Assembly (NCBI GenBank): GCA_021462845.1
Contig: JAJTXU010000024.1
Coordinates: 1 to 33,563, forward strand
Reading direction: 5' to 3'
DNA: 33,563 bases
Source of the DNA: Anaerolineales bacterium
GTDB taxonomy: Bacteria; Chloroflexota; Anaerolineae; Anaerolineales; Villigracilaceae
Part shown: piece after piece, positions 1-31,598 of the stretch
Layout of the letters: every line of letters starts with the position of its first letter
How positions within the stretch are numbered: position 1 is the stretch's first letter
The notes under the pieces: model-generated
The model's database searches: none
Told to the model about the DNA's origin: nothing
Seen by the model: the letters and a program-made list of their open reading frames with translations, nothing else
Translations under genes and position numbers: made by a program

Positions 1-714
1 AGCGGAAACGACCAGGCGGTGAAAGAGGAAGACCGTTCCCCCTTCTCCGGCGGCAAACGCGTGCTGATAGACAATCTGCTGACAAAAGATCAAACCGCCG
101 GGATCGCGCTCGTTTGCTATCTTCTTGGGAGTCTGGCGGGTTTATCCATAACGATGTGGCGCGAACCGAGAGCGCTCTGGCTTGGAATCGCAGGCGTTGC
201 GTTGGCATACTTCTATCACGCGCCGCCGTTCAAACTTTCGTATCGCGGATTGGGCGAAGTGGCAGTCGCCGCAACGTATGGCCCGATCATTGGCGCGGGG
301 ACGTATCTCGTTCAGCGTGGCGCGATCTCGGCAGAGATCATCCTCGGTTCGAGCCTGCTTGGAATTCTGATCGGCGCGTTCCTACTCGTCAACGAATTTC
401 CAGATTACCACGCAGACCAAAGCGCGGACAAAAAGACAATCGTTGTGCGGCTGGGAAGAAAAACCGCCAGCCGAGTGTTTGCGGGAATCGTCGCGATCCC
501 GTTCGTTGCTTTGCTTGTTCTGCCGTTTCTGAATTATCCATTCACCCTCTGGCTGGGATTCATCGCGGTGGCGCCGGCGTTTTCGGCGGTCAAACGCCTG
601 TTGCGCAACCCAGAGACAACGACTCAGATCATCTCTGCGCAGGCTGGCGCATTGTTGACATTTCTACTTTTCGCGCTTGGGACCGGCGTTGGGTTCTTGT
701 TAACTCATAGTTAG
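1..714 (+). CDS. UbiA-family prenyltransferase, 5'-truncated by window edge
   Basis: This is the C-terminal 237 residues of a polytopic UbiA-family enzyme. The family joins a polyprenyl chain to an aromatic acceptor, for example in MenA-type menaquinone synthesis. The reading frame is open from base 1 and starts with SGNDQAVKEEDR, which matches the end of the family's first Asp-rich motif (NDxxDxxxGND). The GTG at position 19 is therefore an internal codon and the real start lies upstream. The second Asp motif, NEFPDYHAD, is visible near bases 391-417, and several hydrophobic segments follow. A menaquinone role would fit the quinone-reactive NrfD-type complex downstream, but that is inference; heme or chlorophyll prenylation cannot be excluded from this fragment. 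Confidence 0.85.
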   Translation, partial: SGNDQAVKEEDRSPFSGGKRVLIDNLLTKDQTAGIALVCYLLGSLAGLSITMWREPRALWLGIAGVALAYFYHAPPFKLSYRGLGEVAVAATYGPIIGAGTYLVQRGAISAEIILGSSLLGILIGAFLLVNEFPDYHADQSADKKTIVVRLGRKTASRVFAGIVAIPFVALLVLPFLNYPFTLWLGFIAVAPAFSAVKRLLRNPETTTQIISAQAGALLTFLLFALGTGVGFLLTHS

Positions 715-789: not shown

Positions 790-815
790 ACGAAGTTCCA
801 AAGAAAGGAATTCAA

Positions 816-1265
816 ATGAAAAAACCGTTCATCCTGTTCGTTATACTCTTCATCTTGTTGAGCGCGTGCGCAAGTGAAAATTCAGGCGGGATTCCCATCA
901 CCGTCTATCGCTCGCCTACCTGAGGTTGCTGTGGCGACTGGGTGCAGTACGTCGAAGAGAACGGCTTTGATGCGACCATGAAAAATGTGCAAGATATGGG
1001 TCCCATCAAAATCCAATATCAGGTGCCTGTCGAACTCCAGTCGTGCCACACTGCCATCGTGGATGGCTACGTGATCGAAGGACATGTTCCAGTTTCCGAA
1101 ATCAACCGCCTGCTTGCGGAGAAGCCAGATGCTATTGGCTTAGCAGTCGCGGGGATGCCCATCGGCTCGCCCGGAATGGAGACAGCGGGCGTGGCAACTC
1201 AACCGTACGAGGTGATCTTATTTTTCGCCGATGGCAGGTGGGATGTGTATGCCAGTTACCCGTAA
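816..1265 (+). CDS. DUF411/CopG-like lipoprotein, candidate selenoprotein (TGA at codon 36)
   Basis: Read through TGA 921-923, this ORF encodes 149 residues. It has a lipoprotein signal (Cys18 in LLSAC), then SPT-U-GCCGDW at residues 33-42, then the DUF411 (COG3019) hallmarks SCHTAIVDGYVIEGHVP (Cys77, His78, His90) and GMPIGSPGME (about 113-122). The family normally has CGCC where this gene encodes UGCC, so the TGA sits exactly on a conserved redox or metal-binding Cys. ATG 816 has a good AAAGGAA ribosome site at 804-810. The only later in-frame start, GTG 942, has none and would remove the signal peptide and the CxCC motif. A SECIS-like hairpin follows the TGA. CopG-type proteins act in periplasmic copper handling; here the protein would sit on the outer membrane face. 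The alternatives are a nonsense mutation or a sequencing error. Confidence 0.8.
933..953 (+). promoter_or_regulatory. Candidate bacterial SECIS element
   Basis: The strand folds as GGCG-ACTG, loop GGTG (941-944), CAGT, one bulged A (949), CGTC. This is an eight-pair stem with one G-U pair and a single bulge. Seventeen bases separate the TGA (921-923) from the apical loop, and the loop begins with GG. These features match the general rules for bacterial SECIS elements as I recall them: loop 16-37 nt after UGA, a G in the first two loop bases, and a short upper stem. The hairpin lies wholly inside coding sequence, as bacterial SECIS elements do. The fold was done by eye. Confidence 0.65.
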
Positions 1266-1447: not shown

Positions 1448-3631
1448 ATGAAGTTGAAAAACGTACTGATTGCTATTGGAGCGACTCTCGTCTTCGGGGT
1501 TATTATTACTGCCTGCGGTTCCACCCCGACAGCCGCTCCGACCGAACCGCCCACTCCCACCGAAATCCCTGCTCTCATTCCAGATACTCCCTATCTGGCG
1601 GAGTGGCAAGAATCGGGTCATGCGGATGTGGCAAGCGAGCCCTTCCGTCATTGGGATGGGGAAGACCCAGCCGAGGTGCCTGCCTCGTGCGCAAAATGCC
1701 ACACCACCACAGGCTACCAGGATTTTCTCGGCGTAGATGGGAGCGAACTGTCCAAGGTGGATGCCGCCGTCCCTGCGAGTGAAGCGCAAGGCATCCAGTG
1801 TGTGGCTTGTCACAATGCCGTAACGATCTCCAAGACAACGGTCACCTTCCCTTCGGGCATGACGGTTACCGCAGGCGACGATACGCGTTGCATGGAGTGC
1901 CATCAAGGACGCGAGTCGAAAGTTAGCGTGGATGCCCAGATCGAAGAGTTTGCCGCTACCGATCCCGATGCAGTAGTGGCGCCGATCAAGGACGATCAAG
2001 GCAACGATGTGTTCTTCGGCTTCCGCAACGTGCATTATTATGCCGCGGCGGCAACGCTCTATGGCGGCAAAGCCATGGGTGGATATCAGTACGAAGGTCT
2101 CGCCTACGACTCGAAAAATCAACATGTGGAAGGTTTTGATTCATGCATCGGTTGCCATGATCCGCACACGTTAGATGTGAAGGTGGAAAGTTGCGCGGAA
2201 TGCCACGATGACGTCAAGACTGTCGAAGATTTGACGGATGTCCGTATGATTAGTTCGGCCAGTGACTACGATGGCGATGGCGACGTGGAAGAGGGCATGT
2301 ACTACGAGGTGGAAGGCTTGCGAGAAGTTCTGTATGCCGAAATTCAGGCATATTCCGCGAATACTGCCGGAGCCGCGCTGGTATATGATTCGTCCGCATA
2401 TCCATATTTCTTCAACGACACCAACGCCAATGGCGCTGTAGATGAAGGAGAAGCCGCGTTCCCGAACGCTTATTCCACCTGGACCCCGCGCTTGTTAAAA
2501 GCCGCGTACAACTATCAAGTATCGCTCAAAGATCCCGGCGCATACGCGCACGGCGGCAAATATATGATCCAATTGATGTATGACTCGATCGCCGATCTGG
2601 GCGGCGATGTGAGCGGGCTCGCCCGCAGTGACGCCGGTCACTTTGCCGGGGATACCGAAGCGTTCCGACATTGGGATGGCGAAGAAGAAGGCAATGGAGT
2701 AGTTCCATTTGGTTGTGTGAAGTGCCATACGGCGACCGGCCTGCCCGATTTCCTTGCGGCAGGAGGATCGAACATGGTCAACGCAACCGGCACAACGACC
2801 ATAGTTGGGCTTGGCCCGGCTCCATCCAGCAATGGGTTTGCCTGCGCCACATGCCATCTTAGCGAATCGTTCCCCGATCGATATACCGTCAATTCGGTTA
2901 TCTTCCCCAGCGGCAAAACGGTCAGCTACGGCGGCAAGGATGCGGATGGGAACTTCCTGCCGGACGACTCAAATTTGTGCATTTCCTGCCATCAAGGGCG
3001 CGAATCTACAACCAGCATGAATAACGCTCTGCGCGGCAAAGACCTCGACACTGTGGACGCGAAGATCCGCTTCAAGAATATCCATTACTTTGCGGCAGGC
3101 GCAACACTCTTCGGCGCAGATGTGCAAGGCGCGTACATGTACGAAGGCAAAGAATATGCCGGCATGAACCTGCACGCCTCTGAAGAAGGGAAAGCCAACA
3201 AGTGCCAGGATTGTCACGATGTTCACGCGCTCGAACCCAAGGTTGAATCTTGTGAGACCTGTCACGATACCACCGACCCAACTACCATCCGCGAGACAGA
3301 CGTGGATTACGATGGCGATGGCGATGTAGCCGAAGGAATCAGCGGCGAAATCGCCACATTGACCGAAGCGCTTTACGCGCAGATGCAGGCATATTCAGAA
3401 GCGCACGGCGGGATCATCTCATACGATCCGCTCGCCTATCCGTACTTCTTCGGCGCTGACGGGAAAGGGTACGCCGCCTGGACGCCACGACTCGCCAAAG
3501 CCGCATTCAACTACCAGTACGTTCAGAAAGACCCCGGCGCATTTGCCCACAACCCGAAGTTTGTCATCCAGTTCCTGATCGACTCGATCGAAGACCTCGG
3601 CGGCGACGTTAGCAAGTACACGCGCCCATAA
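1448..3631 (+). CDS. Decaheme c-type cytochrome lipoprotein with duplicated pentaheme modules
   Basis: This 727-residue exported protein has a lipobox ending at Cys23 (VIITAC) and a Pro/Thr-rich linker. Ten CxxCH heme sites start at residues 81, 118, 148, 233, 249, 423, 466, 511, 586 and 602. The protein is an internal tandem duplication: each half carries FRHWDGE, CxKCHT, CHQGRES, a F-[RK]-N-[VI]-HY block, a DYDGDGDV acidic loop (about 273-280, repeated near 620) and a closing ATP-free block with WTPRL and KDPGA[YF]AH. The acidic loops look like Ca-binding loops. It is probably tethered to the outer face of the membrane and conducts electrons to or from an extracellular partner. A terminator-like hairpin follows it, so it may be transcribed separately from the heptaheme-FeS-NrfD genes, although it probably works with them. 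I do not recognise a specific enzyme activity. Confidence 0.92.
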   Translation: MKLKNVLIAIGATLVFGVIITACGSTPTAAPTEPPTPTEIPALIPDTPYLAEWQESGHADVASEPFRHWDGEDPAEVPASCAKCHTTTGYQDFLGVDGSELSKVDAAVPASEAQGIQCVACHNAVTISKTTVTFPSGMTVTAGDDTRCMECHQGRESKVSVDAQIEEFAATDPDAVVAPIKDDQGNDVFFGFRNVHYYAAAATLYGGKAMGGYQYEGLAYDSKNQHVEGFDSCIGCHDPHTLDVKVESCAECHDDVKTVEDLTDVRMISSASDYDGDGDVEEGMYYEVEGLREVLYAEIQAYSANTAGAALVYDSSAYPYFFNDTNANGAVDEGEAAFPNAYSTWTPRLLKAAYNYQVSLKDPGAYAHGGKYMIQLMYDSIADLGGDVSGLARSDAGHFAGDTEAFRHWDGEEEGNGVVPFGCVKCHTATGLPDFLAAGGSNMVNATGTTTIVGLGPAPSSNGFACATCHLSESFPDRYTVNSVIFPSGKTVSYGGKDADGNFLPDDSNLCISCHQGRESTTSMNNALRGKDLDTVDAKIRFKNIHYFAAGATLFGADVQGAYMYEGKEYAGMNLHASEEGKANKCQDCHDVHALEPKVESCETCHDTTDPTTIRETDVDYDGDGDVAEGISGEIATLTEALYAQMQAYSEAHGGIISYDPLAYPYFFGADGKGYAAWTPRLAKAAFNYQYVQKDPGAFAHNPKFVIQFLIDSIEDLGGDVSKYTRP

Positions 3632-3653
3632 CGTTGCGCCGAACATCCAAGAG

Positions 3654-3684
3654 CAAGGCGGCGGTACAGGTACCCGCCGCCTTG
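3654..3684 (+). terminator. Strong hairpin after the decaheme gene
   Basis: CAAGGCGGCGG (3654-3664) pairs perfectly with CCGCCGCCTTG (3674-3684) around a 9-nt loop, and TTGTTGTTA follows. The stem is very stable but the T-tract is interrupted, so this may be a partial terminator that sets the ratio of the decaheme mRNA to downstream genes. Confidence 0.7.
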
Positions 3685-3814
3685 TTGTTAGACAATGTCG
3701 ATGGAGATGACGTTTATTGTCCTAATTGATGACAGTCTACACTAACTCATAAAACAATCAACCTGTACCATTGATCTCGGATCAATCCACCCTGATTACG
3801 GGAGATGCCCTACA

Positions 3815-4636
3815 ATGAAACCAACAAAATCCTTGTTTTTCCTCGCCAGCCTAATTGCCCTGTCTATAACGCTCGCCGCGTTGGTTTTTGTCCCTTCTCA
3901 AAACGTTTCCGCGGTTGAGCAACGGGCTGTTCAAAACCCAAACGAATGCACGGACTGTCACGATCTGGCATACAACTTGTGGGAACACAGCCCTCACCGT
4001 GAGGCGAATGTCAGTTGTACGGTCTGCCATAAACTTGCAGATACCTCCGGCAAACATCCCGACACGGCAAAATTCACAATCGAGAATGAAAGCGACACGT
4101 GTATCGCCTGCCACTCCAATGTAACAGATAAAGATGTTGCCGGGCAGATGGCGATTAGCCAACACGGTCAAATGGGCTTGAAGTGTGTCAGTTGCCATGA
4201 ACAACACTCACAAGGTATGAAACTCGCCGATGGATCGAATACGGTTTGCGAGAACTGCCACAAGGATGAAATGAACGTCACGCTCAAATCGACTCATTTC
4301 GCGGCGGGCTTGACCTGTGAAAACTGCCACATGGGACGGGAGAACGACCACACCATGATCGTCTCGGTTGCCTCTTGCGAGTCGTGCCATAATAACCTCC
4401 ACGAGGCAAAGGTTATGCGTGACGCGGGACTCGAGATCAAGGCAATGGGCAACATCGATACCCCGGCTGAAAACACTCCTGCGCCTGCCGAAATCGTGGA
4501 AGAACCGTCGGAACCCGTACAAGGCGGCGTGGCATTGCCCAACTGGCTATATGTGTTGGGCGGGTTCATCTTTGGCGGCGTGATCGCTTGGGCGCTCATC
4601 GGCAAAGAGCCGGGCAAGCCCTCCTCTTCCGAATAA
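3815..4636 (+). CDS. Membrane-anchored heptaheme c-type cytochrome
   Basis: This 273-residue protein has an N-terminal signal or anchor (about residues 5-30). Seven CxxCH sites start at residues 45, 68, 96, 124, 145, 168 and 188, and many spare His residues could serve as distal ligands (for example SPH, HFAAG, NDHT). A Pro/Glu-rich linker (about 215-238) leads to a C-terminal transmembrane helix (about 241-263) and a short cytoplasmic tail. The start ATG is preceded by GGGAG at about 3800. The next two genes encode an FeS subunit and an NrfD-type membrane subunit, the usual partners of cytochrome subunits in Nrf-, Qrc- and Hmc-like complexes. Its likely job is to move electrons between the FeS/NrfD pair and the decaheme lipoprotein. 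The order of electron flow is inferred. Confidence 0.9.
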   Translation: MKPTKSLFFLASLIALSITLAALVFVPSQNVSAVEQRAVQNPNECTDCHDLAYNLWEHSPHREANVSCTVCHKLADTSGKHPDTAKFTIENESDTCIACHSNVTDKDVAGQMAISQHGQMGLKCVSCHEQHSQGMKLADGSNTVCENCHKDEMNVTLKSTHFAAGLTCENCHMGRENDHTMIVSVASCESCHNNLHEAKVMRDAGLEIKAMGNIDTPAENTPAPAEIVEEPSEPVQGGVALPNWLYVLGGFIFGGVIAWALIGKEPGKPSSSE

Positions 4637-4672
4637 TACGCGCGTCGTTCTCGAACTTCACGGAGACTCACT

Positions 4673-5509
4673 ATGACCGAGCATGAGACTAAACCAACTT
4701 CTCAAGAGGAAGATAACAAGACTTCACGCCGGGATTTCCTCAAACTGGCGGGGGCGCTGGTGGGAGCCGCCGCGCTGACCCAACTTCCCATGGCGAGAAA
4801 GATGTCCGCCGCCCGCGCCTCGGGAGGCGGAGATGGAACCGGTCATCAATGGGGAATGCTGATCGACATCAACCTGTGCATCGGTTGCCAATACTGTACC
4901 TTTGCTTGTAACGCGGTCAATAATCTCGCCGACGATATGCGTTATTGCGTAGTTACCACCGAAACCACGCGATCAGGCGAAGAATTCTTCCTCTCTCGCC
5001 CGTGTATGCATTGCGACGAAGCCCCCTGCGTGCAAGCCTGTCCTGTAGCCGCGACACGCAAACGCCCAGATGGCATTGTAGAAATGGATTACGACCGCTG
5101 TATAGGATGCAGATATTGCATGGTCGCCTGTCCGTACGATGCGCGCGTGTTCAATTGGAAGGAACCGATCGAACTCAGCCCGCAATCGCCCACGTTTGGA
5201 TATCAGGAAGTGCCAAACCGTCCCCGCGGCGTGGTGGAAAAATGCACATTTTGCTCGCACCGCATCGATGCAGGGCTGGAGCGGGGTCTTGTTCCCGGCG
5301 TCGACCATCAAGCGACTCCCGCGTGCGTGGTTGCCTGCCCCACCAACGCGCGCATCTTCGGCGATATGAACGAAGCGACCAGCCCGATCTCCGTCGCCCT
5401 CGCGGAAGCGACAGTCACCTTGCGCCTGCGAGAGGAACTCAGCACAGAACCTCGCGTTTATTACATCCCGCCCGAATCGCATACAGATAATCCCTTCCAA
5501 GGAAACTAG
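4673..5509 (+). CDS. Tat-exported four-[4Fe-4S] ferredoxin subunit, NrfC/DmsB type
   Basis: This 278-residue iron-sulfur protein has a twin-arginine signal (SRRDFLK, Arg19-Arg20, then a hydrophobic stretch). Four cysteine sets are visible: 69/72/75/79, 111/114/119/123, 143/146/149/153 and 191/194/218/222. This is the arrangement seen in NrfC, DmsB, TtrB and QrcC subunits. Such subunits wire an NrfD-type membrane protein to a catalytic or heme subunit. The Tat signal places it on the outer face, together with the cytochromes. It lies 36 nt after the heptaheme gene and ends 2 nt before the NrfD gene, so it is clearly co-transcribed. No molybdopterin catalytic subunit is encoded nearby. Confidence 0.93.
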   Translation: MTEHETKPTSQEEDNKTSRRDFLKLAGALVGAAALTQLPMARKMSAARASGGGDGTGHQWGMLIDINLCIGCQYCTFACNAVNNLADDMRYCVVTTETTRSGEEFFLSRPCMHCDEAPCVQACPVAATRKRPDGIVEMDYDRCIGCRYCMVACPYDARVFNWKEPIELSPQSPTFGYQEVPNRPRGVVEKCTFCSHRIDAGLERGLVPGVDHQATPACVVACPTNARIFGDMNEATSPISVALAEATVTLRLREELSTEPRVYYIPPESHTDNPFQGN

Positions 5510-5511
5510 CC

Positions 5512-6777
5512 ATGCAAACGGACATTCACATTCCCAGGTTTCGGTTCGGCAAAAAAAACGTGGATATCTTCCCATACTGGGTTGGGCTCCTCTCATTGGG
5601 GATTTTGTTCGGAATGTACGGCGCGTTCATTGTGCTACGAGACGGGTTGGATGTCACCGGTTTGACGAACAAGGTGCCGTGGGGGTTATGGGTTGTGATG
5701 GATTTAGCCTCGATCTCGCTCGGCGGTTCCGCTTTTGTGTTCGGAGTGATCGTCTACCTCATGAAGCTCAAACGGTTTGAAATCGTGGCAAAACTGGCGG
5801 TGTTGCTCGGCTTTCTGGGGTACACCACCGCCGGAATGGTTATCTGGTTCGACTTGGGTCAGCCGTTCCGCTTCTGGCACCCGATGGTGTTCTGGCAACC
5901 CCACTCCCTGCTTTGGGAAATCACCATGTGCGTGATCCTATACCTTGGCGTTCTCTCGGCAGAGATTTTGCCGGTTGTTGTTGAACATTCGTTTTTCTAC
6001 GAGCATTCCCTGCACAAGCGCTACCCGATCATTAAGAAACTGGTAGAACTTGCCAAGAAACTCGCGCACTGGCTTCACAAACTTGTGCCTGTCCTTGCCG
6101 TGGTCGGACTGACGCTTTCCCTGCTTCATCAGGCATCGCTTGGCGCGTACTATTCCGTGCTCAACGGACGCGGCGTGTGGTTCAACCAAAGCGCTCCCGT
6201 TCAATTCGTATTTTCCGCCATGAGCGGCGGGATCGCATTCTTGTTTTTCACGGGCGTCATCATGTTTCGCGTGATGCGCCCGGGCTTGGTCAAGGATGAA
6301 ATTCTGTACGATGTAGCGCGTCTCTCCGGCGGCGTCACTTTGTTGCTTACTTACCTGCGGCTATGGGACTGGGCGGTGACGTACTACTATTCATTTGACG
6401 TGAACATTGCCCTGCAAACCGAAGCATTGAACGCCGTTGCCCCATATTCGTCGACATTTTGGATCGGGCAAATTCTGCTTCCGATCATTGCCGGCGCAGC
6501 GATGTTCTCGGCAAAGTCGATCAAAAACTTCCGATACCTGATGGTTTTTTCTCTCTTCCCCATGGCGGCGGCTGTCCTCACCCGTTGGAATTACAATTTT
6601 GCGGGGTTGATCGCCATGCCCACGTACGATCCATACACGCCGATCATCCGCATCAGTTCCTACACGCCAACTTGGCCCGAGTTCGCCATTGCCACTCTGG
6701 TCGTCAGTTATTGGCTTATGGCATTCAGTTTCGCCGCCCGTTACCTGCCTTTCAAAGGTCCCGACGCCGCGCATTAA
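5512..6777 (+). CDS. NrfD/HybB-family quinone-interacting membrane subunit
   Basis: This 421-residue polytopic protein has about nine to ten hydrophobic segments. Segments such as WGLWVVMDLASISLGG and GMVIWFDLGQPFRFWHP are characteristic of the HybB/QrcD branch of the NrfD/PsrC family, which exchanges electrons with membrane quinones. It starts 2 nt after the FeS gene and is the last gene of the cluster, followed by a clear terminator at 6807-6831. Together with the FeS protein and heptaheme cytochrome it would form a quinol-to-cytochrome (or reverse) oxidoreductase. Whether it is electrogenic cannot be read from the sequence. Confidence 0.92.
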   Translation: MQTDIHIPRFRFGKKNVDIFPYWVGLLSLGILFGMYGAFIVLRDGLDVTGLTNKVPWGLWVVMDLASISLGGSAFVFGVIVYLMKLKRFEIVAKLAVLLGFLGYTTAGMVIWFDLGQPFRFWHPMVFWQPHSLLWEITMCVILYLGVLSAEILPVVVEHSFFYEHSLHKRYPIIKKLVELAKKLAHWLHKLVPVLAVVGLTLSLLHQASLGAYYSVLNGRGVWFNQSAPVQFVFSAMSGGIAFLFFTGVIMFRVMRPGLVKDEILYDVARLSGGVTLLLTYLRLWDWAVTYYYSFDVNIALQTEALNAVAPYSSTFWIGQILLPIIAGAAMFSAKSIKNFRYLMVFSLFPMAAAVLTRWNYNFAGLIAMPTYDPYTPIIRISSYTPTWPEFAIATLVVSYWLMAFSFAARYLPFKGPDAAH

Positions 6778-21168: not shown

Positions 21169-21939
21169 TCACGGGACAGTCAGGATTAAGGGGTCTCCTT
21201 CGGTGACAGCGACCGAATGCTCAAAGTGCGCTGTCAATGATCCGTCTGCCGAAACCACTGTCCAGTGATCGGGCAGGATGCGTGTTTGCTCTGTTCCAAT
21301 CAGGACCATGGGTTCGATGGCTATTGTCATGCCCGGTTTGAGAGGCAGTCCCGCCCCGGCTTTGCCGTAGTTCGGCAATTGGGGACCTTCGTGCATCTGC
21401 CTGCCCACACCGTGGCCGGTGTATTCGCGCGTGACGAAATAGCCGTTACTTTCCACATGTTTTTGTATCGCCGCAGATACGTCGCCCGTGCGGTTGCCCA
21501 CACGCATCTTTTCGATGCCGAGCGCCAACGCTTCTTCTGTGACCTTCAGCAGGTTGCGGGCTTCGGGAGAGATTTCTCCCACCCCGGCGGTCAAAGCCGA
21601 ATCCGCTACCAACCCGTTGAGCACGGTTCCGCAATCGATCGAAACAATGTCGCCCTCTTTTAGGATCCGTTTCTTGCTCGGGATCCCATGGACGAGTTCG
21701 CGGTTGACGCTCACCGTGATCGATGTCGGAAATGGCGGATGCCCATAACCTTTGAACGGTGATACACACTTGTGTTTCCTCAGCACATCCTCAGCAGCCG
21801 CGTTGAGATCGGCAGTGGAAACACCCGGTTTTAAAAGCGCTCGTACAGTCGCCAATACTTCTGCATTGATTCGCCCGGCTTCGCGCATGGTCTGCAGTTC
21901 AGCCTGGCTCTTAAGGTGAATCTGGCGAGCCCAACTCAT
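21169..21939 (-). CDS. map: Methionine aminopeptidase, type I
   Basis: This 256-residue enzyme removes the initiator Met from new proteins. The five metal ligands are visible as Asp102, Asp113, His176, Glu209 and Glu240 (VSIDCG, VADSALT, GHGVGR, AIEPM, HFEHSVAVTE), plus the substrate-side His84. The start overlaps the adk stop by 4 nt, so it is coupled to adk. No extra N-terminal zinc-finger domain is present. Confidence 0.97.
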   Translation of the reverse strand: MSWARQIHLKSQAELQTMREAGRINAEVLATVRALLKPGVSTADLNAAAEDVLRKHKCVSPFKGYGHPPFPTSITVSVNRELVHGIPSKKRILKEGDIVSIDCGTVLNGLVADSALTAGVGEISPEARNLLKVTEEALALGIEKMRVGNRTGDVSAAIQKHVESNGYFVTREYTGHGVGRQMHEGPQLPNYGKAGAGLPLKPGMTIAIEPMVLIGTEQTRILPDHWTVVSADGSLTAHFEHSVAVTEGDPLILTVP

Positions 21940-22592
21940 GATCTGGTTTTCAAGGCTTCCATCAGATCCTGCGTCACTTGATCGATGGCCTGTAATCCAT
22001 TAATTTCTACCAACTTGCCGTGATCGCGATAATATTTGATCAACGGGGTTGTTTGCTCCATATACACTTCGATGCGACGCGTCACGGTTTCCGATTTGTC
22101 GTCATCGCGTTGATACAACTCCGAGCCGTCGAGGTCACATCTGCTTGCTATTTTTGGCGGGTTGGTCTTCTCGTTGAAGATGTGACCGCTTTCGCGGCAG
22201 GTCCAGCGCCCGCTCAGGCGGCTGATCAACTCATCGCGCGGGGCAATGATCTGCGGAACGACATTCACGCGCCCATGGAAGGTCTGGAGCATTTCTTCCA
22301 GCGCGGTCGCCTGCGCCGGGGTGCGGGGAAAACCGTCCAAGATAGCGCCAGTTTCACAGTCGGGACGAGCGAGACGGTCCTTAATCATCGCGATGGTCAC
22401 GTCATCCGGTACCAAGTCTCCCTTGCTCATGTACGTTTGGGCAAGCTTTCCCAGATCGGTTTGGTTCTTAATGTTCTCGCGGAAGAGATCGCCCGAGGAG
22501 ATGTGGGCAAGCCCAGTCCGCTCGGATAAACGATTTGCCTGCGTGCCTTTGCCAACTCCGGGTGGTCCGATGAGGACAATATATGTCGGCAT
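21936..22592 (-). CDS. adk: Adenylate kinase, long form with mixed LID ligands
   Basis: This 218-residue enzyme catalyses AMP + ATP = 2 ADP. The P-loop is GPPGVGKGTQ (9-18), with DGFPRTPAQ and the arginine-bearing RRIEVY. In the LID, the positions that bind zinc in many bacteria are Cys132, Ser135, Cys152 and Asp155 with the exact C-x2-x-x16-C-x2-D spacing. So one Cys of the usual C-C-C-D set is a Ser. This may weaken or remove zinc binding. It follows secY by 14 nt and overlaps map. Confidence 0.97.
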   Translation of the reverse strand: MPTYIVLIGPPGVGKGTQANRLSERTGLAHISSGDLFRENIKNQTDLGKLAQTYMSKGDLVPDDVTIAMIKDRLARPDCETGAILDGFPRTPAQATALEEMLQTFHGRVNVVPQIIAPRDELISRLSGRWTCRESGHIFNEKTNPPKIASRCDLDGSELYQRDDDKSETVTRRIEVYMEQTTPLIKYYRDHGKLVEINGLQAIDQVTQDLMEALKTRS

Positions 22593-22606
22593 AACAGGAC
22601 TCTTCT

Positions 22607-23980
22607 CTAGCTGGTTAGAAGTTTTATATCTTCGTAGCGGTTTTTCAGTTCGGATTCGATATTGGCAACCGTATCACGAACCACGCCGACCACGATCAAC
22701 AGACCCGACGACGATACCAGAAACAACCCGGCGTTATTGCTCGCCGGTGGATAAACCACTTGAATGAGAAATGGCATGATCGCTACGATACCCAGCAAGA
22801 GCGCGCCCGGCAATGTAATGCGGCTCTGAATGCGGCTCAGATATTTTTGAGTTGGCGCGCCTTCCGGCACGCCGGGAATCTGAATGCGCTGGCGTTTTAA
22901 GTTGTCGCCATAATTCTGCTGGTCGAAAATGACGGTCGTGTAGAAATAAGTGAAGGAAACGACCATGAGGAAATACAACGACCAGTAGCCCCACGAGTTT
23001 GCGCCGCTGGCATTGAAAAAGTTCACGACGCTCGTCGAAAAATTCGCCACCCATTGAGTTTCGGAGGTGACAAAATAACTTGCCACGATCGCGGGGAATT
23101 GCAGGATGGCGCTCGCGAAGATCAGCGGGATCATGCCGGAGAGGTTCACCAACAGCGGCAGAAAAGGCTGAGGAGTCTTAATCGTCCGTCCGCGTTGGAT
23201 GGCTTGGAACACTTGCGCCTTTTGGGCGAACATGATCGGCACATTGCGGCGCCCCTGCTGAACGTACACGACAGCAACCACTGTGAGAATGATGACCACT
23301 ATCATGATCGCGAGCAACACCCAACGATTGGTTTCATCTAACAAAATGACCTGGATGTTCTGCGGGATCTGCGACACGATGCCTGCAAAGATGATGAGCG
23401 AGAGTCCCTGCCCGCGGATACCGTATTCTGAGATCAACTCTCCAAGCCAGATGGCGAACATAGTGCCTGCGGTCATCACTAGCAATGTAGTGAGCGATGA
23501 TAGCCACAGGTCAGGCGTGAAGCCGAACGGGATGATAGTTTGCGAAGCGATGGAATTGAATATATTGATCTGTCCGATCGCTGAAAGCATCGCCATCGGC
23601 ACGGCAAGATAATACGTCCACTTCTCCATCCATTGGCGGCCCTCGCGCGGGTTATCTTCCATGCGCTTCTGCAACGCGGGGATGATCGGGATCAGCAATT
23701 GCAGGATGATCTGCGCCGTGATATATGGGTACACACCCATTGAGAGAAGCGAGAAATTCGAAATTGTGCCGCCAGAGAGCAGGTTTAGGAAATCGAGAAA
23801 GTTCCCAGACCGGCTCTGCTGAAGGAACGCCTCCAACGCGGCGCGATCCACACCCGGGGCGGGAACGTTTGCGGCGATGCGAAAGATCAACAGGATTCCA
23901 AGCGTGATCAGCAATTTCCGGCGAATATCTTCCGATGTCCACAAAAATCGCCAAGCGGATGGTTTGTTCTTTTCAGCCAT
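22607..23980 (-). CDS. secY: Protein translocase channel SecY
   Basis: This 457-residue protein has ten transmembrane helices and the expected motifs, such as the first-helix LGILLIFRIAANVPAPG, the plug region and GVYPYITAQIILQLL in helix 2, and the C-terminal GLLIVVGVVRDT. It is the central channel for Sec export and membrane insertion, needed for the many exported lipoproteins encoded at the left of the window. It lies 16 nt after rplO, the standard spc-operon place. Confidence 0.97.
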   Translation of the reverse strand: MAEKNKPSAWRFLWTSEDIRRKLLITLGILLIFRIAANVPAPGVDRAALEAFLQQSRSGNFLDFLNLLSGGTISNFSLLSMGVYPYITAQIILQLLIPIIPALQKRMEDNPREGRQWMEKWTYYLAVPMAMLSAIGQINIFNSIASQTIIPFGFTPDLWLSSLTTLLVMTAGTMFAIWLGELISEYGIRGQGLSLIIFAGIVSQIPQNIQVILLDETNRWVLLAIMIVVIILTVVAVVYVQQGRRNVPIMFAQKAQVFQAIQRGRTIKTPQPFLPLLVNLSGMIPLIFASAILQFPAIVASYFVTSETQWVANFSTSVVNFFNASGANSWGYWSLYFLMVVSFTYFYTTVIFDQQNYGDNLKRQRIQIPGVPEGAPTQKYLSRIQSRITLPGALLLGIVAIMPFLIQVVYPPASNNAGLFLVSSSGLLIVVGVVRDTVANIESELKNRYEDIKLLTS

Positions 23981-23996
23981 GAAGTTCCTCGGATAC

Positions 23997-24461
23997 CTAC
24001 TCGGATGCGGCGATCAGTTCCACACTGCCGCCTGCTTTTTCGATCTTGGCTTTGGCGCCCGCGCTCACGCGATGCGCGCGGACTTTGAGACCTACGGTCA
24101 TTTCGCCGCGACCTAAAATTACCACTGGGTTGCGGGGATCGCGTAACAAATGGGCTTCGGTCAATGTTTCAGGCGTAACTTCCGCGTCTGCTTTGAAGGC
24201 TGTGGAAAGCTGGTCCAAATTCACTTCGTTGTAGTCGACGCGATTCAGCGGGGTAAATCCCTGACCGCGCATGAACGGCAAGCGACGATAGAACGGCAGG
24301 TTGCCGCCCTGACGGTACATCTTACCGCCTTCACCGGAGCGCGAACCTTGACCCTTGGTGCCGCGACCGGCCGTCTTGCCCTGCCCTGCAGAGATGCCGC
24401 GACCGACGCGCTTGCGATTCTTTTTGGAACCCGGGTTTGGCGCTAATTCATGAAGTTTCAT
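23997..24461 (-). CDS. rplO: 50S ribosomal protein L15 (uL15)
   Basis: This 154-residue protein has the glycine-rich N-terminus (MKLHELAPNPGSKKNRKRVGRG, GKTAGRGTKGQGSR), GGNLPFYRRLPFMRGQGF and the C-terminal AHRVSAGAKAKIEKAGGSVEL. It follows rpmD by 3 nt. Confidence 0.97.
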   Translation of the reverse strand: MKLHELAPNPGSKKNRKRVGRGISAGQGKTAGRGTKGQGSRSGEGGKMYRQGGNLPFYRRLPFMRGQGFTPLNRVDYNEVNLDQLSTAFKADAEVTPETLTEAHLLRDPRNPVVILGRGEMTVGLKVRAHRVSAGAKAKIEKAGGSVELIAASE

Positions 24462-24464
24462 CGT

Positions 24465-24668
24465 CTATCCTACTTCTTCCACGTGAACCAAGTGGACGAT
24501 CTTATTGATCATCCCACGAACGGCTTCCGTGTCTTTATGTTCAATGGTTTGTTGCAAGCGGCGCAAACCCAATGCCCGCGCGGTTGCGCGCTGATCTTTG
24601 GTATAGCCGATTGGGCTTTTCACCAACGTTACAAAAATTGTTTTGCCCTGTGATTCCTTTTTAGGCAT
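24465..24668 (-). CDS. rpmD: 50S ribosomal protein L30 (uL30)
   Basis: This 67-residue protein reads [55 protein letters not shown], the short bacterial L30. Its start overlaps the end of rpsE by 8 nt, which suggests translational coupling. Confidence 0.96.
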
Positions 24669-25206
24669 GTTGCTTCCTCCGTTCCCAAAACGGCAAAAGA
24701 TCGTTTACGTTCTTTCCGCGCCGCGCGGCTTCCTCCGCCGGGGATCGCAACTGACCGAGCGCGTCGAATGTAGCCTGCACCACGTTCAACACATTCGCGC
24801 TTCCCTGCGATTTGGTGAGGATGTCGCGCACGCCGGCAACTTCAAGCACGGCGCGCACGCCGCCCGCCGCGATCACGCCGGTTCCGGGAGAAGCGGGCTT
24901 GAGCATTACTTTTGCGCCAGCCACGCGTCCCAGCACCTCGTGCGGGATGGTGGTACCGGAAAGGTTGACAACCTTCATCTTCTTGCGGGCGCGCGTCGAT
25001 GCTTTGCGCATCGCATCCGGTACGGCATTTGCCTTACCCACACCCATCGAGATCGTTCCCTTCTTGTCGCCCACCACAACAGTTACGCGAAACTGAAAGC
25101 GGCGACCGCCTTTAACCACCTTCGCCACGCGCGCAATTTCGATCACACGCTCTTCGAATTGGTCCTGTGCTTCAAAATCCTGTTGATTTTTATTGTAATC
25201 TGCCAT
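24661..25206 (-). CDS. rpsE: 30S ribosomal protein S5 (uS5)
   Basis: This 181-residue S5 has an N-terminal dsRNA-binding part ([31 protein letters not shown]) and the C-terminal [38 protein letters not shown]. It helps set decoding accuracy. The N-terminus is a short charged extension ([16 protein letters not shown]). Confidence 0.97.
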
Positions 25207-25221
25207 TTGTTCTCCACGAAC

Positions 25222-25587
25222 CTAAAACTGCAAGCCGCCTTCGCGCGCGCCATCAGCCAACGCTTTCACCCGACCCACATAACGAAACCCGCCGCGGTCG
25301 AACACAACGGCTTGGATGCCCTTGCCCTTTGCGCGTTCAGCAATCGCCTGCCCGATCATTTTTGCCTGCTCGGACTTCTTCATGCCTTTTACTTTCGCGC
25401 GCAAATCCTTATCCACAGTGGATGCGGAGGCGAGCGTACGTCCCGCGCTATCGTCGATGATCTGCGCGTAAATCGCAGACAGACTCTTGAACACGTTCAA
25501 GCGCGGACGTTGAGCTGTGCCCGCCATATGTTTGCGGACGCGCGCATGCCGGCGGGTTCGCGCCAACAATCGTGATTTATTCGCCAT
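25222..25587 (-). CDS. rplR: 50S ribosomal protein L18 (uL18)
   Basis: This 121-residue protein has the basic N-terminus [41 protein letters not shown] and the C-terminal [26 protein letters not shown]. It carries 5S rRNA into the large subunit. It follows rplF by 3 nt. Confidence 0.97.
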
Positions 25588-25590
25588 GGC

Positions 25591-26139
25591 TTACTTGGCT
25601 CCTTTCGCGGCTTTACCAGCCTTGCGGCGGACTCGCTCACCCGCGTAGCGGATACCTTTGCCATGATACGGCTCTGGCGGGCGCACACCGCGAATTTCAG
25701 CGGCGGTTTGCCCAACCACTTCGCGGTCGAATCCCTGTACCTTGATCTGGCGGGTTTTCAAATCCACTTCGAAGGAAATGCCGGCAGGCGGTTCCACTTT
25801 GACTGGGTGCGAATAGCCCACAAACAACGCCAGGTTCTTCCCTTCCATTTCAGCGCGGTATCCCACGCCTTCCACTTCAAGCACCGTCTCAAAGCCGGCG
25901 CTGACGCCGCGCACCATGTTGGCAATCACTGCGCGAGTGGTGCCGTGGAGGGCGCGTTCAGCGGGGTGATTCGAATTGCGCTTCACCACAACCTGCCCAT
26001 CCTCCATCGCAATAGCAATGTGCGGCGAGAATGTGCGTTTCAGTTCGCCCTTCGGGCCCTTTACGTGTACATCTGATCCCTGCACAGTGACCTGCACACC
26101 GCCTGGGATCGCCACGGGTAATCGTCCAATACGAGACAC
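25591..26139 (-). CDS. rplF: 50S ribosomal protein L6 (uL6)
   Basis: This 182-residue protein has two related beta-rich domains. The N-terminus reads MSRIGRLPVAIPGGVQVTVQG and the C-terminus carries the L6 signature GVRPPEPYHGKGIRYAGE. It sits at the base of the GTPase centre. It follows rpsH by 14 nt. Confidence 0.97.
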   Translation of the reverse strand: MSRIGRLPVAIPGGVQVTVQGSDVHVKGPKGELKRTFSPHIAIAMEDGQVVVKRNSNHPAERALHGTTRAVIANMVRGVSAGFETVLEVEGVGYRAEMEGKNLALFVGYSHPVKVEPPAGISFEVDLKTRQIKVQGFDREVVGQTAAEIRGVRPPEPYHGKGIRYAGERVRRKAGKAAKGAK

Positions 26140-26153
26140 TTAAACCTCCTGCC

Positions 26154-26567
26154 TTACCACACTTTACACAGGATCTCGCCGCCCACGCCGAGTTGTCGGG
26201 CGCGCGCGCCGGTCATCACGCCTTTGGGTGTCGATAGGATGGCAACGCCGATCCCGGAAAGCACCCAGGGGATGTCCTGCTTCTTAGTGTAAATTCTTCG
26301 TCCGGGCGTGCTTACGCGTTCCAGTCCGGAAATAACCGGTCGTTTCTCGCGGCGTTCGCCCACATATTTGATCTTTATTCGCAAAGTCTTATGAGCGGCA
26401 GGTTCGCCGTCCACCACCTCGAATGTTTCGAGATATCCTTCATCCTTGAGTATCTTTGCGATCTCCAGTTTGAGCTTGGAACTCGGCATTGCAACCAGCG
26501 CGTGCCCTGCCAACACGGCATTGCGCACGCGGGTGAGCATATCGGCAATTGGGTCGTTTATAGACAT
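26154..26567 (-). CDS. rpsH: 30S ribosomal protein S8 (uS8)
   Basis: This 137-residue protein shows [39 protein letters not shown] and the C-terminal [34 protein letters not shown]8 is a central 16S rRNA binder and, in other bacteria, the spc-operon repressor. It follows rpsN by 13 nt. Confidence 0.97.
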
Positions 26568-26580
26568 GCTATCACCTCGC

Positions 26581-26763
26581 CTACCATGAAGACTTCACAA
26601 CGCCGGGGATTTTGCCCTGCAACGCGAGTTCGCGGAAACAGATGCGGCACAAGCCAAAGCGGCGGATATACCCGCGCGGTCGTCCGCAGCGCACACAGCG
26701 GTTGCGGACCTGGCTTGGATGCGCCCGTCGGGTCTCTCGATATTGCATACATTTCTTCGCCAT
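26581..26763 (-). CDS. rpsN: 30S ribosomal protein S14, short zinc form (uS14)
   Basis: This 60-residue S14 is the type Z form. Cys23, Cys26, Cys39 and Cys42 (CVRC and CRIC) bind zinc, and the C-terminus [17 protein letters not shown] matches the family. It is not the long zinc-free S14 of proteobacteria. It lies between rplE and rpsH with 3 and 13 nt spacers. Confidence 0.96.
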
Positions 26764-26766
26764 AAA

Positions 26767-27315
26767 TTATGCTTCCTTCTTGCTGAACGGCATTCCAAGC
26801 AACTGCAACATGGCACGCGCCTGGTTATCATTATTCGCGGTGGTCACAATCGTGACTTCCATCCCGCGCAATTTGTCGATTTTGTCGTACTCGATCTCCG
26901 GGAAGATCAACTGGTCGCGCAAGCCCAAGGTGTAATTGCCGCGCCCGTCGAAAGCGTTAGGCGACACACCGCGGAAATCGCGCACACGTGGCAGAGCCGT
27001 TGTCATCAGGCGGTCAAGGAACGCCCACATCTTATCGCCGCGCAGGGTAACTTTGGTTCCGATCAAGCGGCCTTCACGCAGTTTGAAGTTCGCAATGCTC
27101 TTGCGCGCCTTGGTCATTACCGGTTTCTGCCCGGTGATGATGGTCAGATCGTTAACGGCGGCTTCGAGGGCTTTGGGGTTATCCATTGCCTCGCCCATGC
27201 CGATGTTGATCACGACCTTATCCACGCGCGGCACTTGCATGACGTTCTTAAATTCGAACGATTTGCGCAATGCTGGAACAACGTCGCTGTTGTATTTTTC
27301 CTGTAATCTATTCAT
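26767..27315 (-). CDS. rplE: 50S ribosomal protein L5 (uL5)
   Basis: This 182-residue protein has [41 protein letters not shown] and the C-terminal [26 protein letters not shown]. It contacts 5S rRNA and the P-site tRNA. It follows rplX by 18 nt. Confidence 0.97.
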
Positions 27316-27333
27316 TCTTCAAATACTCCGCGG

Positions 27334-27672
27334 CTAGGCGATGATCGCCTGGCAATCTTTGTTCTTGCAGACGCGGTGCGCGCCATCCTCGTCGCGTTTG
27401 ACGCCGACCCGCGTGGGTTCCTTGCACGTCGGGCAGACCAGCATCACGTTCGAGATGTGAATCGGTCCTTCGAAGTGAATCCGCCCGGGGTTGATGTTGC
27501 GGTTCGATTGCGTCTGCACCTGCCGCTGGTGTTTGGTGCGGATATTGACACCCTGCACGATCACGCGGCGCGTATCGAGGATCACGTTGATGACTTCGCC
27601 GCGCTTGCCTTTGTCTTCGAGGCGCCCGCTGATGACTTGCACGGTATCGCCTTTGCGAATCTTGACTTTCAT
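27334..27672 (-). CDS. rplX: 50S ribosomal protein L24 (uL24) with zinc-ribbon Cys
   Basis: This 112-residue protein has the KOW motif at the N-terminus (KVKIRKGDTVQVISGRLEDKGKRGEV) and the GGIHxxEG-like GRIHFEGPIHISNVMLVCP. Four Cys (80, 83, 102, 107) form a CxxC...CxxxxC set at the C-terminal end, consistent with a zinc ribbon. L24 is one of the first proteins in 50S assembly. Confidence 0.96.
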   Translation of the reverse strand: MKVKIRKGDTVQVISGRLEDKGKRGEVINVILDTRRVIVQGVNIRTKHQRQVQTQSNRNINPGRIHFEGPIHISNVMLVCPTCKEPTRVGVKRDEDGAHRVCKNKDCQAIIA

Positions 27673-27690
27673 TCTGATTAATCCTCCAAC

Positions 27691-28062
27691 CTAGAGCACT
27701 TCCGGAGCCAGTGAAACGATCTTCATGAAGCCTTTTTCACGTAACTCGCGCGCAACAGGACCAAAAATGCGCGTGCCTTTGGGGTTTACGCCATCGGCAT
27801 CCAACAACACAGCGGCGTTATCGTCGAATTTGATGTATGAGCCGTCTTCGCGCCGCCATTCTTTCGAACAACGAACGATAACCGCGCGCACTTTCTCGCT
27901 CTTCTTTACACCGCCTTGCGGGGAAGCCGATTTCACCGAGGCGACGACCACATCGCCGATACTGCCATATCTTCGGGTTGAGCCGCCCAGCACGTGGATC
28001 ACGAGCAGTTCGCGCGCGCCGGAGTTATCAGCCACTTTGAGACGGGATTCGTGCTGGATCAT
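27691..28062 (-). CDS. rplN: 50S ribosomal protein L14 (uL14)
   Basis: This 123-residue protein is close to the standard 122. It reads [28 protein letters not shown] and later [65 protein letters not shown]. It forms part of the subunit interface. It follows rpsQ by 3 nt. Confidence 0.97.
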
Positions 28063-28065
28063 CGC

Positions 28066-28353
28066 TTATTCCTCCGCCTTCAAGTCTGCGACGCCGGTAT
28101 CTGCCGTGCGCACTTCACGCTTGACGATGGATTCAACCACCCAGCGTTTCGTGCGAGACAATGGCTTGGATTCAACCAACTCGACCTGATCGCCAACCTG
28201 GCAACCGATCTCGTCATGCGCTTTGAAACGCTTGCTCGAATGGACGACCTTGCGGTACAAGGGATGACGGAAGACCCGCTTCACCTCGACTACGACCGTC
28301 TTGGTCATCTTGTTGCTGGTGACCACACCAGTCACGCGACGACGATTGTTCAT
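28066..28353 (-). CDS. rpsQ: 30S ribosomal protein S17 (uS17)
   Basis: This 95-residue protein has [62 protein letters not shown]. The acidic tail ([13 protein letters not shown]) is somewhat longer than usual. Its start overlaps rpmC by 4 nt (ATGA). Confidence 0.97.
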
Positions 28354-28571
28354 GCTTCACCTTCCTTGGCTTCCGCGGCTTGTTGCTCGCGTAAAATGGT
28401 CAACATGCGGGCAATCTCGCGGCGCAGAATTCGCACGCGGCTGGTGTCGGTTAACTGGCCTGTTACCTGTTGGAACCGCAACTTCATTAATTCATCGCGC
28501 GCGTCGGTCAGTTTGCCTTCGATCTGGCCAGGCTGATCGTTACGCAAATCTTTCGCTTTGACAGCCTTCAT
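28350..28571 (-). CDS. rpmC: 50S ribosomal protein L29 (uL29)
   Basis: This 73-residue protein is an all-helical L29 ([40 protein letters not shown]). It forms part of the tunnel-exit ring where SecY and trigger factor dock. Both ends overlap neighbours by 4 nt, giving tight coupling of rplP, rpmC and rpsQ. Confidence 0.97.
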
Positions 28572-28990
28572 GCCTGTTCTCCTTCATGCCGCGCAACGAC
28601 CTTGGTCTTGATTGAGAATTTATATTGCGCATTCTTGAGCGCCTGAACAGCCGTGGCAGAATCCAGACCGCCCACCTCGAACATGATACGCCCAGGCTTG
28701 ACAACCGCCACATAATATTCAACATTCCCTTTTCCGGAACCCATGCGGGTTTCGGGTGGCTTGTGTGTGAACGGCTTCGCCGGGAAGATGCGAATCCAGA
28801 CTTTTCCACGACGCTTCATCTCGCGGACGATGGTGCGGCGCGCGGCTTCGATTTGTCGCGCAGTCACCCAACCGGGCTCGAGCGCCTGTAAACCGAACTC
28901 GCCGAAACTGACCTCCGCGCCGCGCAGGGCTTTGCCCCGCATACGACCGCGCATTTGCTTGCGCCACTTTACACGTTTTGGCATCAACAT
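28568..28990 (-). CDS. rplP: 50S ribosomal protein L16 (uL16)
   Basis: This 140-residue protein has [87 protein letters not shown] 28990 is chosen because GAGG lies 8 nt upstream and the length then matches L16. The frame is open to 29056 but that would overlap rpsC. It sits next to the A-site tRNA. Confidence 0.96.
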
Positions 28991-29021
28991 AATCACTACC
29001 TCAAAGACGACTCTGAATTTG

Positions 29022-29771
29022 TTACTGGCTGACGTACACGCCTTCAGTCGCCTCAACCTTTTCTTCTATTTCGGGCTTCGCTTCGCCCTTATAGATCCAG
29101 ACTTTTACACCGATCTGACCGTATGTGGTGGTCGCCTCAGAGATGGCGAAATCCACATTCGAGCGCAGGGTTTGCAATGGGACGCGTCCCTCGCGCAACC
29201 AGACATCGCGCGACATTTCCGCGCCGCCCAAGCGACCACCTACCATGATCTTGATGCCCTCGGCACCTTGCTTCATGGCTTGCTGTATTGCGCGCTTCAT
29301 GGCGCGGCGATAAGCAATACGGCGTTCGAGTTGGTCGGCAATGTTGTGCGCAACCAGCATCGCGTCGGTATCAGGCGAGCCGATCTCTTTGATATCAAGG
29401 TCGACCTTTTTACCAACCAGCGCTTCCAGCCCCGCGCGGATCTTTTTCACGCCTTCGCCCTTGCGTCCAATCAAAATGCCAGGCTTGGCGGTGTGAATCG
29501 AAACCTTGATCTTGCCGGGGTAGCGTTCTACTTCTACCCGGGAGATGCCTGCCTTACGGTTCTTCACTGTATCGGGCAGGTCTTTGCGCAATTTGCGAAC
29601 TTCCGCGCTTTTAGCGGCGCCGCCCTTCGATGGGATTCCGAGCAAAAGATTGCGAATGGCAAAATCCTGGTGAAGGTGTTGGCGATATTCGGCGCCCTCA
29701 GCGAACCAGCGCCCCTGCCAACCCTGATTGATTCCAAGCCGCATTCCAATCGGATGAACTTTACGACCCAT
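29022..29771 (-). CDS. rpsC: 30S ribosomal protein S3 (uS3)
   Basis: This 249-residue protein has the N-terminus [26 protein letters not shown], the KH domain with [21 protein letters not shown] and the C-terminal [30 protein letters not shown] and VWIYKGE. It forms part of the mRNA-entry site. It lies 31 nt before rplP. Confidence 0.97.
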
Positions 29772-29780
29772 AACTTCTCC

Positions 29781-30134
29781 TTATGACTCCGGTGACGCCC
29801 CGCGCTCGCGCAGGACCACAGTGATATGCGAATTGCGGCGAAGAATCGGCTTGAAACGTCCACGGGCGCCGAAACGCCTCCACTTGCGTGTGGGAGCCTC
29901 GTTCGCAAAGATCTGCGCTACGAACAGGTCGTCGCGGCTGATGCCGAGATTTTCTTCCGCATTGGCAACCGCGGAAGCCAGCAATTTTCGCACCGGTAAT
30001 GCCGCGGCTTTGTTCACAAAACGGAGCATTTCGAGCGCGTCGTTCGCATCCTTGCCTCGCACGAGATCAACGACCAGCCGCACTTTTTGCGCAGACATCG
30101 GAAGAAACTTCAAGTGTGCTTGAATATCATGCAT
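29781..30134 (-). CDS. rplV: 50S ribosomal protein L22 (uL22)
   Basis: This 117-residue protein has AHLKFLPMSAQKVRLVVDLVRGKDANDALEML, and the loop KWRRFGARGRFKPILRRNSHITVVLRE that reaches the exit tunnel (the site hit by macrolide-resistance changes in other bacteria). It lies 9 nt before rpsC. Confidence 0.97.
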   Translation of the reverse strand: MHDIQAHLKFLPMSAQKVRLVVDLVRGKDANDALEMLRFVNKAAALPVRKLLASAVANAEENLGISRDDLFVAQIFANEAPTRKWRRFGARGRFKPILRRNSHITVVLRERGASPES

Positions 30135-30146
30135 GACTCAAATTCC

Positions 30147-30434
30147 TTATGATGCCGCGGGCGTGGCGGCTTTCTCGCCAATGGTATGGCCGCGGAAAGT
30201 GCGCGTGGGGGCAAATTCGCCCAGGCGGTGACCAACCATATTTTCGGTGATGTAGATCGGCACATGCCGTCGTCCGTCATGGACGGCGATCGTATGACCA
30301 ACCATCTGCGGGAAGATCACACTGGCGCGGCTCCAGGTGCGAATCACTTTCTTTTCGCTTTTCTGATTCATCGCTTCGATTCGCTTTAACAGCTTGGGTT
30401 CCACGAAGGGACCCTTTTTCAATGATCGTGACAT
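30147..30434 (-). CDS. rpsS: 30S ribosomal protein S19 (uS19)
   Basis: This 95-residue protein has [76 protein letters not shown]. It binds 16S rRNA in the head with S13. It lies 16 nt after rplB. Confidence 0.97.
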
Positions 30435-30450
30435 TCTTACCTCAACTCAA

Positions 30451-31589: not shown

Positions 31590-31598
31590 ATCGGTCTC

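Follow-up and report, generated by a model that had tools for sequence, protein, structure and literature searches.

The in-frame TGA at positions 921-923 of the stretch analysed here (the window: positions 1-33,563, forward strand, of contig JAJTXU010000024.1 from Anaerolineales bacterium assembly GCA_021462845.1) is best explained, with good confidence, as the selenocysteine (Sec) codon of a CopG-type lipoprotein whose function is likely to be linked to copper. Judged by sequence comparison, it is highly probable overall that this gene encodes a Sec-containing DUF411 protein, and the selenoprotein family that it would represent, apparently unreported so far, is very likely real. The gene has the following layout.

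804..809, plus strand: ribosome-site-like AAAGGA, 6 nt ahead of the ATG, seen in the sequence
816..1265, plus strand: complete gene for a predicted 149-residue, Sec-containing DUF411/CopG-type lipoprotein; ATG-to-TAA frame with TGA read as Sec
858..869, plus strand: LSAC, which we take to be the lipobox, codon 867-869 being that of the lipidated Cys; seen in the sequence
921..923, plus strand: TGA, putative selenocysteine 36, opening the motif UGCC; sole in-frame stop, with TGA or TGY exclusively at this site in 143 + 58 distinct homologues
924..932, plus strand: GCC of UGCC (Gly37, Cys38, Cys39), invariant in 54 sequences
1044..1052, plus strand: Cys77-His78-Thr79, putative metal site, invariant in 54 sequences
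1152..1178, plus strand: GMPIGSPGM block with Met114 and Met121, both invariant in 54 sequences; compare the CxCC and two-Met site of CopG (PMC7558416, in the part available)

From the ATG at 816 the frame passes through LSAC, the TGA at 921-923, U-G-C-C, SCHTA, DGYVIEGHVP and GMPIGSPGME to the TAA at 1263-1265. A preliminary description had claimed that this TGA is the only stop within an otherwise complete DUF411 lipoprotein frame, and the claim is borne out, together with its ribosome-site-like AAAGGA, lipobox and later motifs. The read-through product matches PF04214 (DUF411, whose COG is presumably COG3019) at 8.6e-28 (96.3 bits; curated cut-off 27) and CopG (PDB 6wis) by sequence at 1e-30; U36 aligns with the first Cys of the CopG CxCC motif, as the same description had proposed, and the window's protein has UxCC instead of the all-Cys CxCC. 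Searched as a pattern, the arrangement has a single match in the window, and 100 shuffles yield none. DUF411 is matched by all 54 aligned members (E up to 0.001), among which U36, G37, C38, C39, W42, C77, H78, T79, Y85, E88, G89, H90, L100, G108, M114, P119, G120 and M121 are invariant.

Automatic gene calling had been expected to return a fragment at 942-1265, and an ORF listing (table 11) indeed yields just that 107-residue fragment. The same result would follow if the TGA were a true stop, whether in a decaying gene, through a sequencing error or with a restart at GTG 942 that gives a shortened protein, and this explanation may also appeal to two TGA-bearing genomes in which Sec machinery went undetected and to one homologue with a second in-frame stop. 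It is nevertheless very improbable: the same codon occurs in more than 100 genes from separate records, the residues directly upstream of the TGA are conserved throughout the family, and, in four members of the window's genus, the 12 upstream codons differ by 2 to 7 synonymous versus 1 to 3 other changes. Together with the Sec-specific RNA structure described below, this recurrence and upstream conservation led to the rejection of both a pseudogene and a sequencing error; the latter is no explanation for the same codon in more than 100 records from many phyla.

The extent of TGA conservation was assessed with searches that used the Pfam domain downstream of codon 36, and because the Pfam match spans residues 74-121, these searches are blind to the codon itself. 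The preliminary description had allowed for the case that all close homologues carry Cys and this strain alone a stop; in the 301 genomes of the window's order, which gave 24 matches, TGA is found in 15 of the 21 readable copies and Cys in 6. (The three unreadable matches are L026, of odd sequence, L040, cut by a contig end, and L041, below threshold; the 15 TGA copies include L039 despite its second stop.) Another 400 genomes sampled from the phylum added one TGA copy (L044) and the Cys copies L043 and L047, with L045 and L046 unclassified and one further match below threshold. A DUF411 match was present in 91 of 162 genomes of an acidobacterial order, and the 86 that could be classified divide into 41 with TGA and 45 with Cys, with no other codon (from the 91, G777, G786 and G812 were not fetched, and G744 and G796 were unclassifiable).

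A DNA pattern scan of genome contigs returned at least 119 loci, and 111 of the 119 among the matches listed are TGA-DUF411 genes; the remaining 8 are chance matches, and with 8 repeats (among them L066, identical to L039) set aside, 103 loci are new, some of them ended by the locus edge. Since the pattern itself selects TGA, the frequency of the TGA form can be read only from the Pfam-based counts. By record title, which for metagenome bins can be wrong, the at least 103 new loci derive from Pseudomonadota (25), Acidobacteriota (18), Chloroflexota (15), Actinomycetota (14), Gemmatimonadota (8) and, in smaller numbers, seven more phyla, giving 12 phyla in total with 4 loci unassigned. In the full comparison of 143 distinct TGA and 58 distinct Cys genes, a third codon never occupies the site. 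As a single change turns a Cys codon into TGA but into no other stop, the absence of TAA and TAG counts as only mild evidence.

Several individual loci from these searches deserve mention. The isolates Helicobacter brantae and H. cholecystus (L080, L136) carry the TGA form and SelB, and the TGA form is also present in a Parendozoicomonas isolate (by record title). Two metagenome bins with the gene are labelled Bordetella parapertussis (L050, L061), and these labels look doubtful. Two differing TGA-DUF411 copies share a genome or contig in three cases (L030 and L042; L113 and L160; L119 and L156). In L039/L066 the second in-frame stop lies ahead of SCHTA, reflecting decay or an assembly error.

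The host genome (4.17 Mb in 362 contigs, 94.6% complete) was searched for selA, selB, selC and selD, which the preliminary description had named as the genes to look for, and all four were found: tRNA-Sec scores 64.5 bits and has a TCA anticodon, and SelA, SelB and SelD are matched at 9e-137, 2e-108 and 8e-105, respectively. The host SelD (L018, G000:C343, about 1501-2433) contains an in-frame TGA of its own within GUASKL and is therefore itself a probable selenoprotein. Two hallmarks of a bacterial selenoprotein are present, namely SelA, SelB, SelC and SelD in one genome and an in-frame TGA where homologues have Cys, and UGA 921-923 would be decoded as Sec by the SelA/SelB/SelC/SelD system of the cell. 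If UGA instead encoded a standard residue (Trp or Cys), by a change of the genetic code or by near-cognate readthrough, the full product would be accounted for as well, as it demands read-through and nothing more. Such decoding is extremely improbable, given that ordinary genes of the window, for example those for adenylate kinase and MazG, also terminate in TGA, that Sec machinery co-occurs with the gene, and that at this position relatives show Cys but in no case Trp; a code change was rejected on these grounds.

The association between the TGA form and Sec decoding extends across genomes. In the scan of the window's order, SelB passes the cut-off in 12 of the 14 TGA genomes, and the other two (G019, G032) have SelA; SelB exceeds the cut-off in 33 of the 36 genomes of this order tested overall, and its presence in nearly all of them means that the comparison does not discriminate there. 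Among 50 TGA genomes from the pattern loci, a subset picked by hand for spread over several phyla, SelB was detected in 43, and of the seven SelB-negative genomes, four have a tRNA-Sec above 60 bits and one more has SelA, so that SelB, tRNA-Sec or SelA is present in 48 of 50. In the other two (G691 and G706), SelB, SelA and tRNA-Sec are all below the cut-off. The TGA-DUF411 gene of G706 (L128, CP070792.1) has no other stops and lies on a Gemmatimonadota record titled as a chromosome.

For the acidobacterial order, 40 of 41 TGA genomes compared with 31 of 43 Cys genomes have SelB or SelA (Fisher p = 0.0016; 84 genomes, G719 and G789 having had no SelB test), while SelB alone, at 32 of 41 versus 29 of 43, gives no significant difference (p = 0.33). 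Significance therefore required SelA, for which the search covered the SelB-negative genomes and only five SelB-positive ones (of which G829 is without SelA), and SelB was counted here at E up to 1e-60, which includes the Cys genome G718 although its match is below the curated cut-off. In the phylum, G492 and G554 (copy without a stop) have SelB, and G498 and G434 (Cys) are without it. G246 and G250, which belong to the same genus as the window and have the Cys form, retain SelB and tRNA-Sec, and the Cys form is consequently not simply a mark of a lost Sec system.

The distribution of the two forms on a tree of 200 of the 201 proteins, calculated with the codon-36 site masked, requires at least 18 changes between Sec and Cys, or at least 7 when branches with support below 95 are collapsed; 100 label shuffles require at least 45 (15 collapsed). 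Within the window's genus, Sec copies (L020, L022-L024) and Cys copies (L027, L028) form one clade with a support of 99. As far as this tree goes, the Sec and Cys forms have been swapped repeatedly.

RNA structure 3' of the TGA also distinguishes the Sec genes. Compared with synonymous shuffles that kept protein and codon content fixed and took in 140 of the 143 Sec genes, the 45 nt after the TGA show an excess of structure in Sec genes (mean z -0.84, t -7.7, n = 140), and the same 45 nt in Cys genes give z -0.18 (t -1.5, n = 58; Sec-Cys difference p = 0.0005). A smaller preceding run, on 114 Sec genes and 8 Cys genes, agreed on the excess after the TGA. Among the 17 segments scored in Sec genes, the one adjacent to the TGA gives the lowest value, with weaker dips at other places (-0.29 at 129); structure dips are present in Cys genes as well (z -0.53 at 75).

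Column covariation among the Sec genes points to the same region. The five best overlapping stretches constitute one helix, which pairs columns 13-22 with 28-37 (numbered from the T of TGA as 0); its best score is 9.7 versus 5.3 for the next unrelated stretch and derives mainly from pairs 17-33 and 16-34 (z 5.1 and 3.1), with statistics only partly corrected for shared ancestry. This helix is outside the eight best covarying stretches in the Cys genes. Six or more consecutive helix pairs can form in 74 of 143 Sec versus 5 of 58 Cys genes, and pair 17-33 in 93 of 143 versus 18 of 58. On this comparison, the structure appears to be both family-wide and specific to Sec genes. The helix is absent from the window's own gene, and when the 15 Chloroflexota genes are taken alone a different diagonal ranks first. 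Folding of the single sequence places another structure directly behind the TGA.

932..954, plus strand: candidate SECIS-like hairpin with a single bulged A in its stem; from single-sequence folding only

The bacterial SECIS (bSECIS) model describes a stem-loop some 16-37 nt after the UGA with a G near the start of the loop. In the candidate hairpin, whose register differs from that of the family-wide covarying helix, the GGUG loop occupies 941-944 and begins at the 18th nucleotide after the TGA. The segment 930-955 folds at -9.7 kcal/mol (z -1.89), with 8 of 200 shuffles folding equally well, and the 45-nt stretch of this gene folds weakly better than its shuffles (z -1.19). Decoding is probably assisted by a hairpin shortly 3' of the UGA, and this one is a candidate for the SECIS element of the gene.

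Turning to the protein, the predicted structure (pLDDT 92.6, with C in place of Sec) overlays on the CopG structures 6wje and 6wis at 1.3-1.4 Å, with an rmsd of 1.4 Å over 125 alignment columns at 43% identity. The five best matches among solved structures are all CopG, and the next are redoxins with E above 0.03. The structures 6WIS and 6WJE are presumably those of the Vibrio cholerae protein. V. cholerae CopG, a DUF411 (PF04214) protein, has the same fold and its CxCC motif at the same position; the differences are that the first Cys of CxCC is Sec here and that the window's protein is a predicted lipoprotein. According to the available part of PMC7558416, CopG holds a tetranuclear copper cluster by means of CxCC and two Met residues, aids copper resistance under anaerobic conditions and is proposed to oxidise Cu(I) and hand copper on.

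The product of the window's gene would accordingly resemble CopG in being a thioredoxin-fold protein, carried as a lipoprotein with a U-G-C-C motif on the outer face of the membrane, with Sec36 replacing the first Cys of the copper-cluster motif of CopG. Sec36, Cys38, Cys39, Cys77 and Met114/Met121 would most likely bind Cu(I) and/or exchange electrons with copper. A role in copper for the Sec-DUF411 protein is putative but rather likely. A more tentative proposal, to which slightly less than even weight is given, is that in a widespread natural protein the selenolate of Sec36 directly coordinates a multinuclear Cu(I) cluster; Sec36 might then tune the affinity or the redox potential of the cluster, a suggestion just as tentative, and lineages could conceivably switch between a Se and a S ligand with selenium supply or with the copper/oxygen regime, which is put forward with the same reserve.

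Alternatively, the selenoprotein could be real but serve chiefly as an oxidoreductase of the thiol/selenol-disulfide type, taking part, for instance, in the maturation of cytochrome c or the reduction of extracellular proteins, and not in copper chemistry. The thioredoxin/glutaredoxin fold and weak matches to glutaredoxin models are in keeping with such an activity, and the Sec position in the DUF411 form is that of the nucleophilic Cys of redoxins. The glutaredoxin-like (seleno)proteins concerned, Uxx-star (NF041212) and YruB-type (TIGR02196), share a weak sequence likeness (best E about 6e-4), but their models match only 4 and 10 of the 54 members, respectively, and not the window's protein. 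Against an oxidoreductase stand the five top solved structures, all CopG, with a sequence match to the same protein, and the invariance of His78, His90, Met114 and Met121; it is considered rather unlikely, though not negligible, and the gene neighbourhoods bear on it from both sides. In the window, the DUF411 gene lies between the following neighbours.

19..714, plus strand: UbiA-type prenyltransferase, upstream
1448..6777, plus strand: two multihaem cytochromes c, a DsrO-like Fe-S protein and an NrfD-like membrane protein, downstream

The downstream genes probably constitute a quinone-cytochrome electron transfer module; the DsrO-like Fe-S protein scores above its NCBIfam cut-off. The position of the gene ahead of multihaem cytochromes is compatible with an oxidoreductase, and in four members of the genus, the window's genome among them, the DUF411 gene is followed by a relative of the first cytochrome. 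With UbiA and a multihaem cytochrome/Fe-S/NrfD set as neighbours, supplying or protecting respiratory metalloproteins is a possible function. Further along, at 21936-32228, the minus strand of the window encodes adenylate kinase, SecY and the ribosomal proteins L2 and L4, which form a section of a ribosomal protein cluster.

For 118 loci, the neighbouring genes up to three ORFs away in both directions were clustered by similarity, with one member per cluster checked against Pfam for the first five clusters and five members checked for CusF. The most frequent are sensor histidine kinases (11 loci), followed by multicopper oxidases (9), P-type ATPases (6), CusF (5), outer-membrane efflux proteins (4), the multihaem cytochrome (4) and others. 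A multicopper oxidase, CusF or heavy-metal P-type ATPase is nearby at 16 of the 118 loci, a minority by raw count. For the ATPases of L033, L037, L124 and L167, the top-scoring models are heavy-metal/copper ATPases, L037 being below the cut-offs. Copper neighbours recur in Betaproteobacteria, some Chloroflexota and some Acidimicrobiia (by record title), which argues against an oxidoreductase. Three of four plasmid records place the DUF411 gene beside genes for CueR, a heavy-metal ATPase, CopC/CopD or CusA/CzcA; the fourth, beside genes for cytochrome c, DsbE and TlpA, is of the kind that an oxidoreductase would lead one to expect. PADLOC gave no match, and the pattern scan of viral contigs gave one, which is not DUF411. 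In the copper-linked reading of the Sec protein, the physiological role would be copper homeostasis or the supply of copper to respiratory cuproenzymes.

The preliminary description did not recall the DUF411 Sec form as an established selenoprotein family, and the sources consulted here contain no description of it. PMC13188914 (May 2026) counts 119 selenoprotein families and subfamilies by its own reckoning, and the available part of its Table 1 has no entry for DUF411, PF04214 or UxCC. A term search for DUF411 in PMC12013277, PMC9312934 and PMC5029168 gave no hit, no publication linking DUF411 with selenoprotein or selenocysteine was found in a search of mostly open-access papers, and wider searches of the same papers, including CopG with copper and selenoprotein, offered nothing fitting by title. 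The window's protein is matched by no NCBIfam model (June 2026); for other family members there are only weak redoxin matches and one chance-like match. Metal-linked Sec proteins of bacteria are nevertheless known: the accessible part of PMC13188914 describes CopZ-family 2Fe-2S proteins, the SO_0444 Cu/Zn efflux transporter, a MerT-like protein and MbdU, which belong to other families with the motifs GxUC, CU, UxC and others, none of them, in that part, DUF411.

The bacterial selenoproteome would thus gain a widely distributed family, found in 12 phyla by record title. Gene finders that read UGA as a stop would shorten these proteins, and since the window's copy is listed as a 107-residue fragment, such copies are probably annotated in truncated form. 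In this family, Sec would be placed in the metal motif of proteins for which a copper-protein structure has been solved, which makes the part of selenium in copper chemistry open to experiment, and matched natural Sec/Cys pairs exist for such experiments, including in the window's own genus.
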